From Phytohabitans maris (GTDB taxonomy: Bacteria > Actinomycetota > Actinomycetes > Mycobacteriales > Micromonosporaceae), in contig NZ_JAVHUY010000023.1 of assembly GCF_031085175.1 (NCBI RefSeq), positions 62,001-126,000 of the forward strand: a DNA stretch of 64,000 nt, in the 5' to 3' direction. Made by a program: the position numbers and the translations under genes. Shown piece after piece: positions 56,879-64,000 of the stretch (position 1 is its first letter; every line of letters begins with the position of its first letter). The notes beneath the pieces are model-generated. The model was not told the origin of the DNA and searched no databases. It worked only from the letters and a program-made list of their open reading frames with translations.

Positions 56879-58947
56879 GTGCGGCGCGGGACTGTCTATC
56901 CGGTGTTGCTGTGGCTGGTCCTGACACTCGGCGTTGCCGGGATCTGGGCCCGCTTCGGTGAGGGTACGGTCACAACGATCGTCGGACTGCTCTCGGCGCT
57001 GATCGCGATGTTTCCGTTGTCCGCGGTCTGGAAGCAGCGCTGGTTCTCCACCGGCCGGCCGAGCACGCCCCGACAGGTGCTCCAGGCATCGCGCGAGCTG
57101 CGCCGAGCGATCCTTGCGTTGTGGGAGGAGGAGGCGGCTCGACGCCGGTTCCGGCATAGCCACGACCAGATCTCCGTCCGGTGGACGCGCGACACCAGCT
57201 CTGCGGGGCGGGTCGGCGAAGGGCTGTCCCTCGACGGCGCGCTGGATTCGCTCAGGGGTACGCGCAGAGCCCGACCGGCCTCGTCGTGGTTGGGGATCCC
57301 GGCTCCGGAAAGAGCAGCCTCTGTGTCCTGCTGACACTTCGCCTGTTGCACGACTCGCCGGCCGAACGGCTACCAGTCCTGCTCCAGATCGGCTCCTGGG
57401 ATCCTCGGGAGAGCCTGCGCACCTGGATGGTGCGCGCGATGGAGTTGGACTACGACCTGCTCCGTGACGAGCAGCGGTTCGGCTCGAGCGCCGCCGAGGA
57501 GCTGATCAGGCAGGGCCGGGTGCTGCCGATCCTGGACGGGCTCGACGAGCTCGCCGACGAGCGGCGGACGGCCGCCCTGGAGGCGATCTACAGTGATCCG
57601 ATCTCCGCCCGGCCGTTCGTGCTCACCTGCCGCAGCAAGGAGTATGCAAGCGCCGGCGCCAACCGCCTCGGCCAGCTGGCGACCGTGGTACACCTGCGTT
57701 CGGTCGCGCACACCGCTGTTGCGGACTACCTCGCTGCGAGTGCGGATCCGGGACGGTGGGAGCCGCTTCTGGGCGAGTTGGCACGGCGACCCGACGGCCC
57801 GCTGGCGACAACGCTGGCCAACCCGCTAATGCTCTTCCTGGCCCGCGCGGCGTACGAGCCGGCGACGACGGTGCCGATGGAGCTGCTCGACGAGGACCGG
57901 TTCGACGAACCCGACCGCATCCGGCAGCACCTGCTGGACAGCTTCGTACCCACCGTCTTCCGACAACCCGCACCGCATGGCGGCCGCGGGCCGGGCGTGC
58001 CTTCACGACAGTGGGATCCCCGCCGCGCCGAGCATTGGCTGGCTTACCTTGCCGCATGGGTGCGGGACGCCGGAACCGGCGAAAACCTGGACTGGTGGAG
58101 GCTACAGAACGTGGTGCCCCGACGCGTCTTCGTGGCGATCGGCGCCGTGCTCGGTCCTGCGTTCTGCGGCCCGCTGGGCCTACTGGCCTTCGGCCTGTTC
58201 GGCGCGGGCCGCTTCGGGCTGTTCTTCGGCGTCGCCATCGGGGCTGTCGGCGGGATCGGGTCCGCCGGCGTCCGCCTGGCAGCACCGCGCCGGTTCAGAC
58301 CGCGAATCATCCTGCGGGACGAGGTCACGTCCGGCCGGATCGTGGAGGACATCGGCTTCGTCGTGGTCGGTGTTCTCGTCGGTGCGGTGCCAGTTGGCCT
58401 GTTATATGGCCCGCTGCCCGCGATCATTATCGGCATTCTCTGGGGCCTCGTGTTCGTCGCCGTTCGCCGATTCATCGCGCCAACAGCACCCCGAGAGGCA
58501 GTCAGCCCTGGCGGCGTGGCCCGCAGCGACCGGGACACAGTGGTTTATACCGTCGCGCTCGGCGGGATCGTTGGCCTTCTCGTAGGGGGCTTCCTCAGCA
58601 GCTTCCTGAATAGCACCTACACGGCCGGGTTCGTCACCCGGCTGAGCCCCGTCGAACGGGGCATCCTTGGCGCCGCGACCGGGCTACTCCTTGGCGCCTG
58701 CGGGCTCGGAGTGCTGATCCTCGCGACCAGTTCGTGGGGCCGGTTCGTCACCACCCGCATCTACCTGGCGATCCACGGCAGCACTCCGCTACGGTTAATG
58801 ACCTTTCTGGACGACGCCCACCGGCTCGGCGTCCTGCGCCAGGTCGGCCCGCACTACCAGTTTCGCCACGTGTTCCTCCGAGACCGCCTCGCACGCTTAG
58901 GCCTGCAGAACGCGTCTACCCACAGATCTCAACCCGGCAACCGCTAA
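56879..58947 (+). CDS. Membrane NACHT-type NTPase, frame change after residue ~124
   Basis: About 690 aa if corrected. GTG at 56879 opens two transmembrane segments (VYPVLLWLVLTLGVAGIWA and TTIVGLLSALIAMFPLSAV) and a helical linker. The sense changes frame near 57247-57260: SLDGALDSL continues as FAQGYAQSPTGLVVV. Then follows the NACHT domain: Walker A VGDPGSGKSS, LPVLLQIGSWDPRESL, Walker B VLPILDGLDELADE, FVLTCRSKEY and LANPLMLFLARAAYE. The C-terminal half holds about six transmembrane segments, then FRHVFLRDRLARLGL. Multi-pass NACHT proteins of this type are candidate immune or conflict NTPases in actinomycetes. Downstream is the tandem-domain paralogue. Confidence 0.8.
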
Positions 58948-59124: not shown

Positions 59125-60048
59125 ATGGACAGCGGCCACAAACACAACCGGCGGGCGAAGGTAACAGCCGAGGCCATCATCGAGATTACGGATGAGGCCG
59201 CGCTGATCAAGGCAGCCATCGCTGATATGGAGAACGCCGAGTTCGCCGTCGACGGCGAAGGCGAGGGGTACCGAGCCAAGATCGAAGCTGACCCGGTCGC
59301 CGCGGTCGGCTGGCTTGCCGATGCGCACGGTCTGCTCCTGGACGTACCGGGTGCGCAGATCATCCGTGCCGAGGACAAGACGGTCGAAGTCGATGAGGTC
59401 GGCCTAGAGGTGTCCGGCGGGCCAGACTTCGCGGCGCTGTTCCCTATCTGCCGGTGCGGACGGGACTCGTGCGACACTTGCGCCGGTTACCAGCTGACGC
59501 CACGCACCGCGGCCGTGCTGTGGACAGTCGCGCAGATCCTCGCCGACCAGGGGTACGACGATGTGATCGAGCATGGCGACCAGCCAGCCGTCGACGACAA
59601 CAGCTGGGCCTTGTTCGACCGGTACCCGCGGATCACCTGGCAGCAGGACGCGGTGTGGCGCAGGCAGGCTGCCCGCGCCTATGACGACCTGACCGAGGAC
59701 CTTGAGGCAGGCCGGCCTCCGCGCCCGACCTGCCCGGCCGAGGAGATGGCGCTACATCTGATCCTCGAGGACGCGCCGACCGCGGTCGACGACGGCTGGG
59801 CTGGGCTGGAAGAGACGCTGCCGCACCTGCCCGAGCATCCCGACGACTGCGATTGGGACCTGGCAGGTGACGTGCTCTTCCAGGACAACGACATCCTTGG
59901 CCTGTTCGAGATCGAGATGGACGGCATCGAAGATCCCGACGGTGATCACAACCGGGCGATCGGGATGGGTGACTATCGGCCACAAGCCTGGTTCCGCACC
60001 TTCCTGAACATGCATCCGCGAGACGGACGCAGACCGTTCCGGCGATAG
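59125..60048 (+). CDS. Single-unit paralogue of the tandem-domain HTH protein
   Basis: 307 aa from ATG at 59125. Residues 1-125 are unique and acidic ([36 protein letters not shown]) and include a cysteine cluster [15 protein letters not shown] that may bind zinc. From about 127 the sequence parallels the second unit of the 46442-48628 protein: [75 protein letters not shown] and [17 protein letters not shown]. Thus the unit is ~180 residues long and ends with the PPSW/PQAWF motif. No HTH. Function unknown. Confidence 0.75.
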
Positions 60049-60500: not shown

Positions 60501-60651
60501 CACGGTCTGTCCATCGTGTTGAGTGGTTGGGCGAACATCTCGGTCGGTTCGACCGGATCATCCGATGAGACGGATACGTTTCGTCGAATCCGACCCCACG
60601 GGGCCGTTGCTATTGTCGCGCAAAAGTCGAATCACAGTTCGATGGGGTCGT

Positions 60652-61158
60652 ATGCGCGACAGACTGTACGACGCGGTGTTGCATGCTCTTCTTGAGGAGA
60701 TATCTGTCCAGTTCCTCGAACGGCGTAAAGACGCCATAGGGCTGGTCACCCTCGAAGACGTATCCGCGCACGCCCAGAGGTCCGCGCCGGTTTCCGAGGG
60801 CGCCCAAGAGGAGCCAACCCGGCGGCGGATGCTGGTCCTCGTTCGCTATCTCGTCATGGCGCATGGCGACGTCTTCGGATTGGAGGCCGGCGCCTTGGCG
60901 CTGCGAGCCACGGTTACCCGCGACCGCAGCGCTGTTCGCTGGGTCGTGCAGTCGTTCGGGAGCAGGGTTCATCGGCAACTCGCGCGGATCACCGGTCGGG
61001 TCGACGACAACAGTGGCGAATGTCCGTATTCGTTACCGATGTCGCCGCCCTCCGGCGAGTCCGCCGACGGCGGAGCACCTCCGCTTGAGGATTTCTTCCG
61101 GGGTTTCGAAGAGGAGATAGCGCGCATGCGACTCGGTGGAGCGGCGGACTTCAGATGA
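60652..61158 (+). CDS. Helical protein, first gene of the Rca/STAND cassette
   Basis: 168 aa from ATG at 60652 (GGGG 4-7 nt upstream). Mainly helical: RLYDAVLHALLEEISVQFLE, RRMLVLVRYLVMAHGDVFGL and RSAVRWVVQSFGSRVHRQLA, with an acidic/Ser-rich C-terminal region and a last helix (LEDFFRGFEEEIARMRLGG). No family recognised. Its stop overlaps the start of the AAA+ gene by 4 bp (ATGA), which ties it to the cassette. Confidence 0.65.
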   Translation: MRDRLYDAVLHALLEEISVQFLERRKDAIGLVTLEDVSAHAQRSAPVSEGAQEEPTRRRMLVLVRYLVMAHGDVFGLEAGALALRATVTRDRSAVRWVVQSFGSRVHRQLARITGRVDDNSGECPYSLPMSPPSGESADGGAPPLEDFFRGFEEEIARMRLGGAADFR

Positions 61159-62009
61159 ATGGGATCGTCGTACCTCCGCGATTCGCCCGGCAGATCCGCC
61201 TGCACCTCGTCGGGAACTTTCTCGACCTCGCCTTAAGCCCGGTCATCTGCGGCATCTTCGGCCGTGCCGGAGACGGGAAGTCCGCGCAGCTCGCCGTCTG
61301 CCTGGCGCATGCGGAGACGCAGGTGTACCGGATAAACGCCAGTGACCTGGAGAGCGGGCTGGCGGGCGAGCCGGGAAAGCTCATCGCCCGTACCTACGCC
61401 GCCGCCTCGTTGGGGGTGGCCAAGAGCAAGCCGGCCGCGCTCGTCATTGAGGACGTCGACACCACCGTGGGTGAGTGGGAGCAGAATACCGGGACCGTGA
61501 ATCATCAGCAGGTCCTCGCGGAGTTGATGCACATTGCCGACCGGCCGGTCGATCACGAGCGAAACAGCCCGGCCCGGGTGCCGATCTTCGTCACGGGCAA
61601 CAACCTGGGCCGCCTGTATCCGCCGCTACGCCGACCCGGGCGAATGGTGGTGTTCGGCTGGCGGCCAACCGTCGACGAGCTACACGGGGTGGTCAGCCGG
61701 ATATTCGCCGAAGTGGCCGCCCCACAGGTGATCGACGCCCTGGTGCGGGAGTTCCGCGACGAGCCGGTCGCCTTCTTCGCCGAGGTCCGGCGGCGCCTGC
61801 ATACGGAGGCGGCGGCAGCGCTTCTCGGCGATCTGCCCCGTGACATGTGTGAGGTGCTCCAGATGAAAGCGCGCATGCGCGAACTGCTGGACCGCGGCTC
61901 GCCGGCAGACGGCTACGAGGTGCTCCGCGCGGCCAAGGAGGTTCGCGACGACCGGGAGTTGGCGTCACGTGACTTCCTTGACGGGACGGCGCGAGGAGGA
62001 CGTCGATGA
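61155..62009 (+). CDS. RuBisCO-activase-type AAA+ ATPase
   Basis: 284 aa. The residue pattern follows RuBisCO activase closely over the core: Walker A IFGRAGDGKSAQ (36-43), RINASDLESGLAGEPGKLIA (Rca has ELESGNAGEPAKLI), Walker B ALVIEDVDTTV (95-100), VNHQQVLAELMHIADRP (Rca VNNQ...TLMNIADNP), RVPIFVTGNNLGRLYPPLRR (sensor 1) and PGRMVVFGWRPT with the arginine finger. No RuBisCO or photosynthetic gene is in the window. The enzyme therefore probably remodels another target, most likely a product of this cassette. Starts at ATGA with the upstream gene and ends in a 4-bp overlap with the next. Confidence 0.88.
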   Translation: MNGIVVPPRFARQIRLHLVGNFLDLALSPVICGIFGRAGDGKSAQLAVCLAHAETQVYRINASDLESGLAGEPGKLIARTYAAASLGVAKSKPAALVIEDVDTTVGEWEQNTGTVNHQQVLAELMHIADRPVDHERNSPARVPIFVTGNNLGRLYPPLRRPGRMVVFGWRPTVDELHGVVSRIFAEVAAPQVIDALVREFRDEPVAFFAEVRRRLHTEAAAALLGDLPRDMCEVLQMKARMRELLDRGSPADGYEVLRAAKEVRDDRELASRDFLDGTARGGRR

Positions 62010-62542
62010 GCGTACGGACGTACACCTGGACGCAGACCCGTCTGGAGACGGTGCAGGACCAGTTCCGGTACCTTCTGGTGTACGGGTCGGTCGACGAGAG
62101 CAAGGCGGACAAGCTGCTTCTCGGGATCCACCGCCAAGAGTTCGAGGCGGTCGGCATCTTCGGGACCAATGCCTCCGGTCAGCGGGTCGTCGAGGTTGAG
62201 CTGGAGGTCGACTGGGAGCGGCACGGTCTGCTGACGCTCAGCGTGCCCACGCTGGTGGGCGAGCTGCCGGGGTGGCAGGAGCGGCAGGCACCCGAGATCC
62301 GGGTCGCGGGTCGCCGCTTCGCCGAGGTCGTCAAGCTCTTGGAGCTGACGACCTCCTTCTGGGTCCGGTTCGTGCCACAGGTCACCGAGGATCCGGCACT
62401 CCACGAGCAGCGTTGCGTTTTCTACGGCTTGGGCTTCCGAAGCGGCGTACCCGAGTGGGAGTCCACGCCGGAGGAACGGACCGAGACTTTCCTCGACCTG
62501 GGTGAGCTCGACGTGACAATCAGGCGTGCCAGTAATCCGTAG
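62006..62542 (+). CDS. Beta-rich partner of the AAA+ ATPase, unknown family
   Basis: 178 aa, overlapping the AAA+ gene (ATGA). A beta strand and long helix open the protein (VRTYTWTQTRLETVQDQFRY), then LLGIHRQEFEAVGIFG, RVVEVELEVDWERHGLLTLS and FAEVVKLLELTTSFWVRFV. The order strand, long helix and meander, next to a remodelling AAA+ ATPase, recalls HORMA proteins paired with TRIP13-type ATPases, but I see no diagnostic residue and the ATPase is not TRIP13. I consider it the likely substrate or adaptor of the ATPase (inference). Confidence 0.65.
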   Translation: MSVRTYTWTQTRLETVQDQFRYLLVYGSVDESKADKLLLGIHRQEFEAVGIFGTNASGQRVVEVELEVDWERHGLLTLSVPTLVGELPGWQERQAPEIRVAGRRFAEVVKLLELTTSFWVRFVPQVTEDPALHEQRCVFYGLGFRSGVPEWESTPEERTETFLDLGELDVTIRRASNP

Positions 62543-62565
62543 GTCGACCACGAGAGGTGCATGGG

Positions 62566-62874
62566 ATGCCCCGATGGGTTCTGGCAGTGGTCTGCGCCGC
62601 CACCGGTGCCGCAGCGTCGCTACTCGTCGTCTGGCTTCTCGGCCAGAGCCTATCCCGGGCGGCGGAGTGGGTCGCGATCTTCGGCGTGGCCGTCTCGGTC
62701 GCGGCCCTCGTGGTCGCCGTCCTGACCTGGCGCCGTCCGGTTTCCCCGACGCCGAGATCCAAAAGTCCCCGCGGGGGCGCTCCCGGCACGCAGAACCGCT
62801 CCGTCCGTAACGTGCGGGGGAGCACGGTGGTGACCGGTGACGACAACAATCTCCGGGTCGATGGCGAGCGATGA
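62566..62874 (+). CDS. Two-TM protein with C-terminal VTGDxN motif
   Basis: 102 aa from ATG at 62566 (AGAGG upstream; GTG at 62557 possible). Transmembrane segments at about 5-25 (LAVVCAATGAAASLLVVWLL) and 35-55 (EWVAIFGVAVSVAALVVAVL), a basic linker, and a cytoplasmic tail with VRNVRGSTVVTGDDNNLRVD. The motif recurs at the N-terminus of the next protein. Last four bases overlap that gene. Confidence 0.7.
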   Translation: MPRWVLAVVCAATGAAASLLVVWLLGQSLSRAAEWVAIFGVAVSVAALVVAVLTWRRPVSPTPRSKSPRGGAPGTQNRSVRNVRGSTVVTGDDNNLRVDGER

Positions 62875-64000
62875 GGGGGTCCGACCGGCACGTCGAGCAT
62901 GTGCACGACAGCGTCGTGGTCACCGGCGACGGCAATGTCGTGCTGTTCGTCAGCGGTCGCGAGTTCGCGCGCGTGCCGATACCGCGCTCGGGCGACGGAG
63001 TGGAGCAACTGCTGTTCGGCCGGCACCGCTCGCGCGGGTCCGCGGTGTTTGGATCATGGCTGCGGCCGGACGCCGGCGTACTCGAGCCGCAGCCGCGGCC
63101 TGAGCTCGCGGAGCTCGCGGCGTGGTGCGCGGACGACCAGGCGCCCGTCGTCCGCCTGGTCTGCGGGGCGGGCGGCCAAGGCAAGACGTTTCTCGCGGCG
63201 CGGCTGTGCGAGCGGGTACGCGGTGAGGGGTGGCTGGCGGGCTTCGTTACCATGCCCCCGGCGAACTGGCGGGCCCTGTCCTCCCCGGACACGGCCGGTG
63301 TCGCGCTCCGGCGTGAACTGCTCCGGCTGCCGGAGCTGACCGCGGGCATCCACGCGGCCGTAGCGACAGGAACGCGGACGCTTCTCGTCGTGGACTATGC
63401 CGAGAACGTGGCACCAGTCGTCGCCGAGCTCCTGAACGCCGTCGCCGACGTGGACGGGTTCGCCTCCGTACGGATGCTGCTGCTGGCCCGCTCGGCCGAC
63501 ACCTGGTGGGATGAGCTGACCGTGGAACACCGCCACTACCGCTCTGTTCAGTCTGAGCCGGTCAAGCTGGAATCGCTCACCCGGAGCTTGACCCCGAGCC
63601 AGGTCGGCGATATCTGGCACCGTGCCGTCGAGACGTTCACTCAACGGGCGGCGGAACGCGGCCTCAAGCCTTCCCCCGCCGAACGCACGAGTGGTCCCCC
63701 GGCCACCCTCTCCACCACGCTCGACCTCTACGCGGGCGCGCTGCTGCAGGTGATTGATCCGATCGGAGGCACGGCGGCCAGGGGCGGGGACGCGCTGGCT
63801 CGCGTACTCGAACACGAGCGCCGGCAGGTCGCGCACGCATTCCGCGCGCAGCAGGTCGAGCTCAGCCCGCTTCGTCGTGATTGGGCCATGCTCACGGCGG
63901 CGCTGCGGCCGGCCGCTACGCTCAAGGAAGCCGCGCGGGCGCTCGGCTCGGTGCCCGCGCTGCACGGCCTCGACGACGCGGCGCTGCTCGGAGTCGCCGA
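62871..64000 (+). CDS. STAND-type NTPase with N-terminal VTGDxN motif, cut by right edge
   Basis: At least 376 aa; the frame is open to the window end. Begins MRGSDRHVEHVHDSVVVTGD and GNVVLFVSG, matching the tail of the upstream protein, so the two may associate through a shared beta structure. A P-loop NTPase follows: Walker A VCGAGGQGKTFLAARL (about 101-107), Walker B TRTLLVVDYAENV (about 167-175), LLLARSADTWWDEL. The region after 240 is helical and may be the start of superstructure-forming repeats. STAND proteins oligomerise on sensing a ligand. This is probably the switch of the cassette. Confidence 0.8.
   Translation, partial: MRGSDRHVEHVHDSVVVTGDGNVVLFVSGREFARVPIPRSGDGVEQLLFGRHRSRGSAVFGSWLRPDAGVLEPQPRPELAELAAWCADDQAPVVRLVCGAGGQGKTFLAARLCERVRGEGWLAGFVTMPPANWRALSSPDTAGVALRRELLRLPELTAGIHAAVATGTRTLLVVDYAENVAPVVAELLNAVADVDGFASVRMLLLARSADTWWDELTVEHRHYRSVQSEPVKLESLTRSLTPSQVGDIWHRAVETFTQRAAERGLKPSPAERTSGPPATLSTTLDLYAGALLQVIDPIGGTAARGGDALARVLEHERRQVAHAFRAQQVELSPLRRDWAMLTAALRPAATLKEAARALGSVPALHGLDDAALLGVA

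Follow-up and report, generated by a model that had tools for sequence, protein, structure and literature searches.

The closest described counterpart of the system considered here is the HORMA-TRIP13 module of type III cyclic oligonucleotide-based antiphage signaling systems (CBASS), reportedly described by Ye et al. in 2020. To our knowledge, HORMA switching has so far been tied to a single ATPase lineage, TRIP13/Pch2. TRIP13 opens HORMA proteins and depends on the N-terminal region of Mad2; there is dispute over the end that it pulls (PMC5717197). Another related group, the MoxR-vWA ternary and iSTAND conflict systems, is found mainly in multicellular prokaryotes (available part of PMC7159879). 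Here we analyze a stretch of 64,000 nucleotides (the window) from Phytohabitans maris (Micromonosporaceae, Actinomycetota; contig NZ_JAVHUY010000023.1, positions 62,001 to 126,000), whose genome comprises 9.87 Mb at 97.3% completeness. The stretch carries a cassette of five open reading frames (ORFs), all on the + strand, which encode a helical protein, an AAA+ ATPase of the RuBisCO activase (Rca) type, a HORMA-domain protein as judged from its modeled fold, a two-transmembrane (2TM) protein, and a STAND-like NTPase.

Like the HORMA-TRIP13 module of type III CBASS, for which the available part of PMC9122588 served as the source of comparison, the locus places a HORMA gene beside that of a dedicated AAA+ remodeler, with close-packed genes, a TY-rich N-terminal tail on the HORMA protein, and a defense context. 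Unlike that module, it has an ATPase of the Rca rather than the TRIP13 type, the slot of the proposed client is filled by a helical protein or a TIR protein, and the HORMA protein is unmatched by the Pfam HORMA models. The green-type Rca proteins (Nostoc 6z1d/6z1f, Arabidopsis 4w5w, tobacco 3t15) share the AAA+ module, as judged from sequence, fold, and tree, but here there is a HORMA partner, no RuBisCO large chain detected in the genome, no plant N-domain, and a match to the Rca helical model that is below threshold. With the MoxR-vWA ternary and iSTAND systems the locus would share the use of a chaperone/co-chaperone pair as a threshold for an effector, although both the ATPase clade and the peptide-binding co-chaperone are different (Kaur et al. 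2020, PMC7159879, in the part available); the main text of that paper contains neither "activase" nor "rubisco" (0 occurrences). What appears to be new is an Rca-type AAA+ protein paired with a HORMA protein, which by analogy would work like HORMA-TRIP13 with another ATPase lineage. No description of such a pair was found in the open-licence literature, judged mostly by titles among the best matches.

Taking together gene order, Rca homology, a modeled HORMA fold, constant pairing and co-inheritance, conserved tails, and some defense-type neighbors, we think it likely that the locus encodes a switch in which the HORMA protein would clamp the tail of a client, the Rca-type ATPase would re-open the HORMA protein, and the output would be of an immune type. 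The comparisons below draw on 23 distinct loci, made up of 21 relatives from a collection of species genomes and five from the family of the window, its own included, with three common to both. The features of the first three genes are as follows.

60652..61158, + strand: helical protein, 168 aa, the proposed HORMA client or adaptor; homologues lie 5' of the AAA+ gene in 14/23 loci; 4-bp overlap with the AAA+ gene
61090..61131, + strand: conserved C-terminal tail of the helical protein, DFFRGFEEEIARMR, the top-scoring 14-column window of the alignment; putative closure motif
61155..62009, + strand: Rca-type AAA+ ATPase, 284 aa, the proposed HORMA remodeler (profile, tree, and Foldseek)
61260..61283, + strand: GRAGDGKS, which we take to be Walker A; G36, G39, G41, and K42 are invariant in 22 sequences
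62006..62542, + strand: predicted HORMA-domain protein, 178 aa (AlphaFold2 model and Foldseek)
62006..62041, + strand: conserved N-terminal tail of the HORMA protein, a predicted handle for the ATPase (conservation and model)

The start of the helical gene at 60652 is unproven because its frame is already open from a GTG at 60523. A preliminary description of this DNA had reported tight packing of the five genes with three 4-bp overlaps and one 23-bp gap, and the ORF coordinates agree: the overlaps lie at the helical/AAA+, AAA+/HORMA, and 2TM/STAND junctions, and 23 bp separate the HORMA gene from the ATG at 62566.

The ATPase and its HORMA partner

In phmmer searches of the Protein Data Bank (PDB), the AAA+ protein matched RuBisCO activases with E values of 1e-35 to 1e-33, and the next match stood at 0.0026. 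The alignment begins at residue 71 of the Arabidopsis Rca chain; the protein therefore has no plant N-domain. A profile built from 22 relatives separated the two classes further, with Rca at 4.8e-71 (243 bits) and the next match, of the VAT/p97 type, at 2.4e-22 (83 bits), and TRIP13/Pch2, MoxR, and ClpX were absent among the best 60 of 261 PDB matches. As a yardstick, a CBASS TRIP13 returned Pch2 at the top (3.5e-30) and no Rca among the best 60 of 273 matches. A tree was calculated for 21 ATPases of the system (the 23 loci minus L024 and L025) with three Rca, three TRIP13/Pch2, and two p97-type sequences; one branch with support of 100/100 parts the system and Rca from TRIP13 and p97. The AlphaFold2 model of the protein (predicted local distance difference test score, pLDDT, 88.6) gave Rca chains as its top eight Foldseek matches, with TM-scores up to 0.82 on the query, followed by Vps4 and p97; MoxR and ClpX were not among the matches listed. 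As in Rca, the family has an ES..AG.P stretch after the second strand and a D-x-D at the presumed Walker B position. The Pfam Rca helical model reached 14.9 bits on the window protein, below its cut-off of 27, and matched 8/22 members at E<=1 (best 2.5e-7).

We conclude that the AAA+ protein is of the RuBisCO activase type by profile, fold, and tree, and not TRIP13 or p97. The preliminary description had said that it follows Rca motif by motif, and this holds, since the motifs quoted there are present and the top PDB matches are Rca. The profile comparison that it proposed also groups the protein with Rca, and the grouping with MoxR or ClpX that it had set against its own claim did not appear in the PDB ranking; the tree contained no MoxR or ClpX rows. 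A TRIP13 orthologue that has come to resemble Rca, with the module as a diverged type III CBASS accessory, is a very improbable alternative. It could appeal to the HORMA partner and to PADLOC, but grouping of the system ATPase with TRIP13 was rejected by the approximately unbiased (AU) test (p-AU 9e-5), and the PDB rankings favor Rca. Moreover, phmmer searches at E<=1e-4, with two queries each, found CD-NTase near the core in 0/23 loci and TRIP13 likewise in 0/23, while both control CBASS loci were found. We do not file the module as type III CBASS, because these two defining features, a CD-NTase and a TRIP13-type ATPase, were looked for and not found.

The product of 62006..62542, called simply a beta-rich protein in the preliminary description, is by its modeled fold a HORMA-domain protein, and the label has been corrected. 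Its AlphaFold2 model, built on an alignment of 22 relatives, has a pLDDT of 94.1 and a predicted TM-score (pTM) of 0.88. Foldseek searches of the PDB returned 59 matches at E<=1e-3 (best 2.2e-5), and every one of the best 50 of 59 came from Mad2, Rev7, or CBASS-HORMA entries, with chain identity within multi-protein entries assigned by inference; the CBASS HORMA entries among the matches are 6p8v, 6p8r, 6p8s, and 6u7b. When the profile of the family was compared by hhalign with six CBASS HORMA proteins (P 0.0015), the TY-rich N-terminal tails were aligned in register. Residues 3-12 have a mean top-residue frequency of 0.65 vs 0.46 for the whole protein, residues 1-8 have no secondary structure in the model, and the C-terminal strands E155-161 and E168-175 are present. 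Searches of sequence libraries with the protein gave no HORMA match, and PF18138 (bacHORMA_1) was found in 0/149 genomes of the phylum, its controls likewise being negative everywhere. The profile matches of the protein in the PDB, two leukocidins (E 6.6-6.7) and 8cyk HALC1_878 (E 0.023), which we take to be a designed protein, held nothing usable.

Pairing, spread and the third slot

The HORMA gene directly follows the AAA+ gene in 23/23 loci, which come from Actinomycetota, Bacillota, and Acidobacteriota. With the start codons chosen, the gap between the two ranges from -20 to +17 nt; in L027 the aligned position has no usual start codon. In the family of the window, a profile search for the AAA+ protein was positive in 5/354 genomes, the window's own included, and one for the HORMA protein in 5/345, which are the identical five genomes; both profiles include members from this family. 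A HORMA profile made from 15 proteins recovered the left-out L015, L018, L024, L025, L027, and L028 at E<=2.1e-53 and L010 at 5e-5, and missed L005/L033 at 1e-3. The distance matrices of the two proteins are correlated (r 0.94, Mantel 0/5000; 19 loci, after three near-copies of 22 were dropped). Searches with single ATPase sequences found two genomes among 298 of the order and one, the window's own, among 394 of the class, and a 245-genome sample from the class of the Ruminococcus locus yielded only the locus already known. No relatives of the ATPase were found on plasmids, phages, or IMG/VR contigs.

The conserved core is thus the AAA+ gene plus the HORMA gene, mostly with the helical gene. 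A survey of neighborhoods, suggested in the preliminary description, therefore bears out part of the cassette, namely this core, and not the five-gene unit, as relatives of the STAND and 2TM genes adjoin the core in the window alone (1/23). A housekeeping role as RuBisCO activase, or as repair chaperone for a metabolic enzyme, would fit the sequence and fold class of the ATPase, but the presence of the ATPase is patchy (the 5/354 above), its HORMA neighbor is constant, and a search of the whole genome for the RuBisCO large chain (PF00016, E<=0.01) found none, in line with the preliminary description, which had noted no RuBisCO gene; the same search was positive in 6/14 control genomes. We regard this explanation as extremely improbable.

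A third slot accompanies the core. Across the 23 loci it holds a helical protein in 14 (window included), a ThsB-type TIR protein in seven, and a transmembrane protein in two. The helical homologues sit upstream of the ATPase; a profile of the 14 finds no homologue in the remaining nine loci, and helical and ThsB proteins occur together in none of the 23. When 13 helical proteins were aligned, L026 being left out as a near-copy, the most conserved 14-column window was the C-terminal tail, F/I-F-x-x-F/L-D/E-E-E-I-x3-R, written FFxGFEEEIxxxR for the window protein. Among the seven ThsB loci, six also have a SLOG protein and five, by eye, a second TIR-like protein; the piece of the latter from L017 had no Pfam match. 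The ATPases of TIR loci that are in the tree (5/7) form one clade. By eye, the ThsB-type TIR proteins downstream of HORMA in L017, L018, L019, L023, L024, and L032 have a similar GSTxxLxxNxxxC end. This end may possibly be another type of client tail for HORMA; its conservation may also be kinship, because the ATPases of TIR loci form one clade.

These observations bear on the possibility that the trio is by itself a complete defense unit, in which the helical or transmembrane protein would be a membrane-acting effector, released or assembled upon a change in HORMA, and the 2TM-STAND pair a chance neighbor in a defense island. In its favor, several loci have the trio without an evident adjoining effector by eye, many helical proteins have hydrophobic N-terminal stretches, and the third-slot proteins of L005 and L010 (Micromonospora-type) have one segment at transmembrane level. 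However, none of the 10 helical proteins measured (of 14) has such a segment, and toxicity of the helical protein is hypothetical. We consider this a possible reading, toward which we lean rather less than against it.

The 2TM-STAND pair and neighboring genes

Downstream of the core lie the remaining two genes.

62566..62874 (alternative start GTG 62557), + strand: two-transmembrane protein with VTGDDN near its C-terminus, proposed to act at the membrane as the effector of the STAND module
62871..64000, + strand: N-terminal part of a STAND-like NTPase, with VTGDGN at 62919-62936 and C-terminal TPRs; the ORF continues past the window

In the 2TM protein, two strong hydrophobic segments start at aa 5 and aa 36, in line with its preliminary name. 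The STAND label comes from sub-threshold matches in the P-loop region of the ORF (full length 1015 aa, ending at L002:8919, window-equivalent 65918), with AAA_22 at 20.1 bits vs a cut-off of 27 and nSTAND5 at 18.7 vs 34; TPR_10 is above its cut-off. Among window ORFs of at least 60 aa, the expression VTGDxN matches only the C-terminus of the 2TM protein (VTGDDN, 62830-62847) and the N-terminus of the STAND protein. Judged by sequence, the pair resembles a layout of bacterial amyloid signaling sequences (BASS), in which, for NLR/BELL pairs, a short motif at the end of a small membrane protein recurs at the start of the STAND/NLR protein next to it (PMC7889193). Unlike in BASS pairs, a 2TM protein takes the place of a demonstrated BELL domain, and the likeness is limited to these two genes; no class (BASS1-10) for the VTGDxN motif was found in the available part of that paper.

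STAND matches at E<=1e-15 were present in 7/200 genomes of the family, the window's own included, and relatives with 43-51% identity occur in genomes G937, G683, and G193. In L045 and L046, a longer form of the motif, GDRSVG...VITGDxN, is found at the start of the STAND protein and at the end of an overlapping small protein upstream. The upstream proteins of L050 and L052 carry the longer form as well; the STAND start of L050 is similar and misses the expression. L051 has no VTGDxN-type match, and the more distant L047 has by eye another matching pair, GGVNIFGINN / GGSNVFGIRN. On the minus strand of L044 (556-2940), a single ORF of 794 aa joins hydrophobic N-terminal segments, VITGDGN, and the STAND part, which looks like the two partners naturally fused. 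Neither the ATPase nor the HORMA protein is present in L044-L047 and L050-L052 (about 4 kb each).

The preliminary description had taken the five genes for one unit. As a system, this would have the STAND protein as sensor, the 2TM protein as pore, and the Rca-HORMA-helical trio gating the signal between them. The tight packing in the window argues for it, as does Bacillota locus L022 (8364-12261, Ruminococcus), where a CyanoTRADDas_TM 2TM protein directly follows HORMA and is followed by an MkoA-like kinase-helicase (Mokosh). However, relatives of STAND and 2TM adjoin the core only in the window, the closest cores (L013 and L028, the latter from Sphaerisporangium, 52 and 54% AAA+ identity) are without them, and other family genomes hold STAND relatives that have the motif pair but no core alongside, once apparently fused. 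We regard a single five-gene system as rather unlikely. Two adjacent modules are the best reading of the cassette, because STAND pairs in other family genomes lack the core and the layout resembles BASS pairs.

Neighbors of the core picked out by eye include ThsB_TIR, SLOG, patatin, TIR_2, caspase, 2TM, and MkoA genes. A recognized defense-type gene lies close to the core in 9/22 other loci (seven with ThsB-type TIR, L022, and L027), a raw count without a background rate. The neighbors include a patatin in L019, a TIR plus a caspase in L027, and a KAP/QatA-like NTPase in L018. The earlier idea of an NTP-controlled conflict system gains from these genes and from the tie of the ATPase to a HORMA partner, and loses the five-gene unit.

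Some further neighbors were noted by eye. In Clostridia (L026:354-1340, L021:1764-3748), a macro-domain/TIR-like protein and serine recombinases lie upstream of the trio, a setting that suggests a mobile or defense island. In Ornithinimicrobium (L020:3830-5691), a Vsr-like endonuclease and a restriction-type protein lie upstream. In the window itself, a 588-aa P-loop ORF (57181-58947) has a NACHT/STAND-like stretch (GDPGSGKSSLCVLLTLRLL) and several hydrophobic segments, and the surrounding region may be a conflict-system island. A 307-aa acidic protein upstream of the cassette (59125-60045) matches RuBisCO_small far below threshold (12.5 bits vs a cut-off of 27), which we take as chance. Outside the window, a group II intron-type reverse-transcriptase-like ORF lies on the - strand (L002:10315-11292), some 1.4 kb downstream from the STAND gene.

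A proposed switch and a possible origin of RuBisCO activase

We propose that the core is a chaperone/co-chaperone switch, in which a HORMA protein would be served by a dedicated AAA+ remodeler of the Rca lineage, encoded by overlapping or closely spaced genes. By analogy with HORMA-TRIP13, the C-terminal "safety belt" of the HORMA protein most likely clamps a peptide tail of the client. In the window the client is probably the helical protein, held through its FFxGFEEEIxxxR C-terminal tail, and in other loci a ThsB-type TIR or transmembrane protein may fill this slot. Given the conserved HORMA N-tail and the TRIP13/Mad2 precedent, the simplest proposal is that the Rca-type ring grips the TYTYT-like N-tail, pulls, and so re-opens the HORMA protein. 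The client would be kept inactive, or the complex dismantled, until a trigger exceeds the ATPase, which would set a threshold for an immune-type effector. The output would be of an immune or conflict type that differs by locus. In the window, the 2TM-STAND module, which follows directly downstream in what appears to be the same operon and is not part of the conserved core, may be the executioner.

Several points weigh against this proposal. The Foldseek TM-scores of the HORMA model are modest (0.36-0.53 on the query) with root-mean-square deviations of 5-14 Å, so that it is the agreement among the matches that carries the HORMA claim; a fold whose safety belt is mobile may be expected to give such values. 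The hhalign probability to CBASS HORMA is just 17% over 72 columns, Pfam HORMA models match none of the 22 members at E<=1, and profile searches of PDB sequences with the HORMA protein found no HORMA. In PADLOC the AAA+ protein matches TRIP13, weakly (E 6.9e-6), and nothing else, and a remote CD-NTase could be missed, because the two queries were alphaproteobacterial and some loci are short. All loci were collected via the ATPase, with the near-copies L018/L025 and L021/L026 among them. The helical tail is a candidate closure motif by an argument from conservation; a simple tail expression misses 2/14 helical tails (L016 and L030), and in L031 the motif lies 23 residues before the end. Since the ATPases of TIR loci form one clade, the mutual exclusion of helical and TIR proteins may be a single event. 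In several loci, for example L014, L015, and L028, no obvious effector is seen next door by eye; because of such loci, and because neighbors were counted without a background, a defense role may not be general. Finally, we infer, rather than observe, that the proteins bind each other, that a peptide is clamped, that ATP drives the resetting, which protein is the client, and that the system acts against phages.

The same data touch on the history of Rca. The best tree places Rca among the HORMA-linked ATPases, and none of 200 bootstrap trees (0%) unites the HORMA-linked ATPases in one group. A constraint that holds them together is not rejected (p-AU 0.057); the backbone branches are unresolved, and the tree has only three Rca sequences. 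A placement of Rca as sister to L029/L030/L031 is neither shown nor rejected (p-AU 0.497). We tentatively raise the possibility, with more doubt than confidence, that Rca descends from a bacterial immune-type ATPase that re-opened HORMA proteins, with the HORMA-linked family older and broader and the cyanobacterial and plant Rca one recruited branch. As Rca falls within or beside the HORMA-linked family, an immune origin of Rca can be tested.

If the proposal is true, a second ATPase lineage, of the RuBisCO-repair type, would serve HORMA proteins, and HORMA remodeling would have been staffed more than once. The core would then offer a minimal bacterial system for studying HORMA remodeling. The family provides a close relative of Rca in a genome without detectable RuBisCO, and this makes the question of where Rca came from a testable one.

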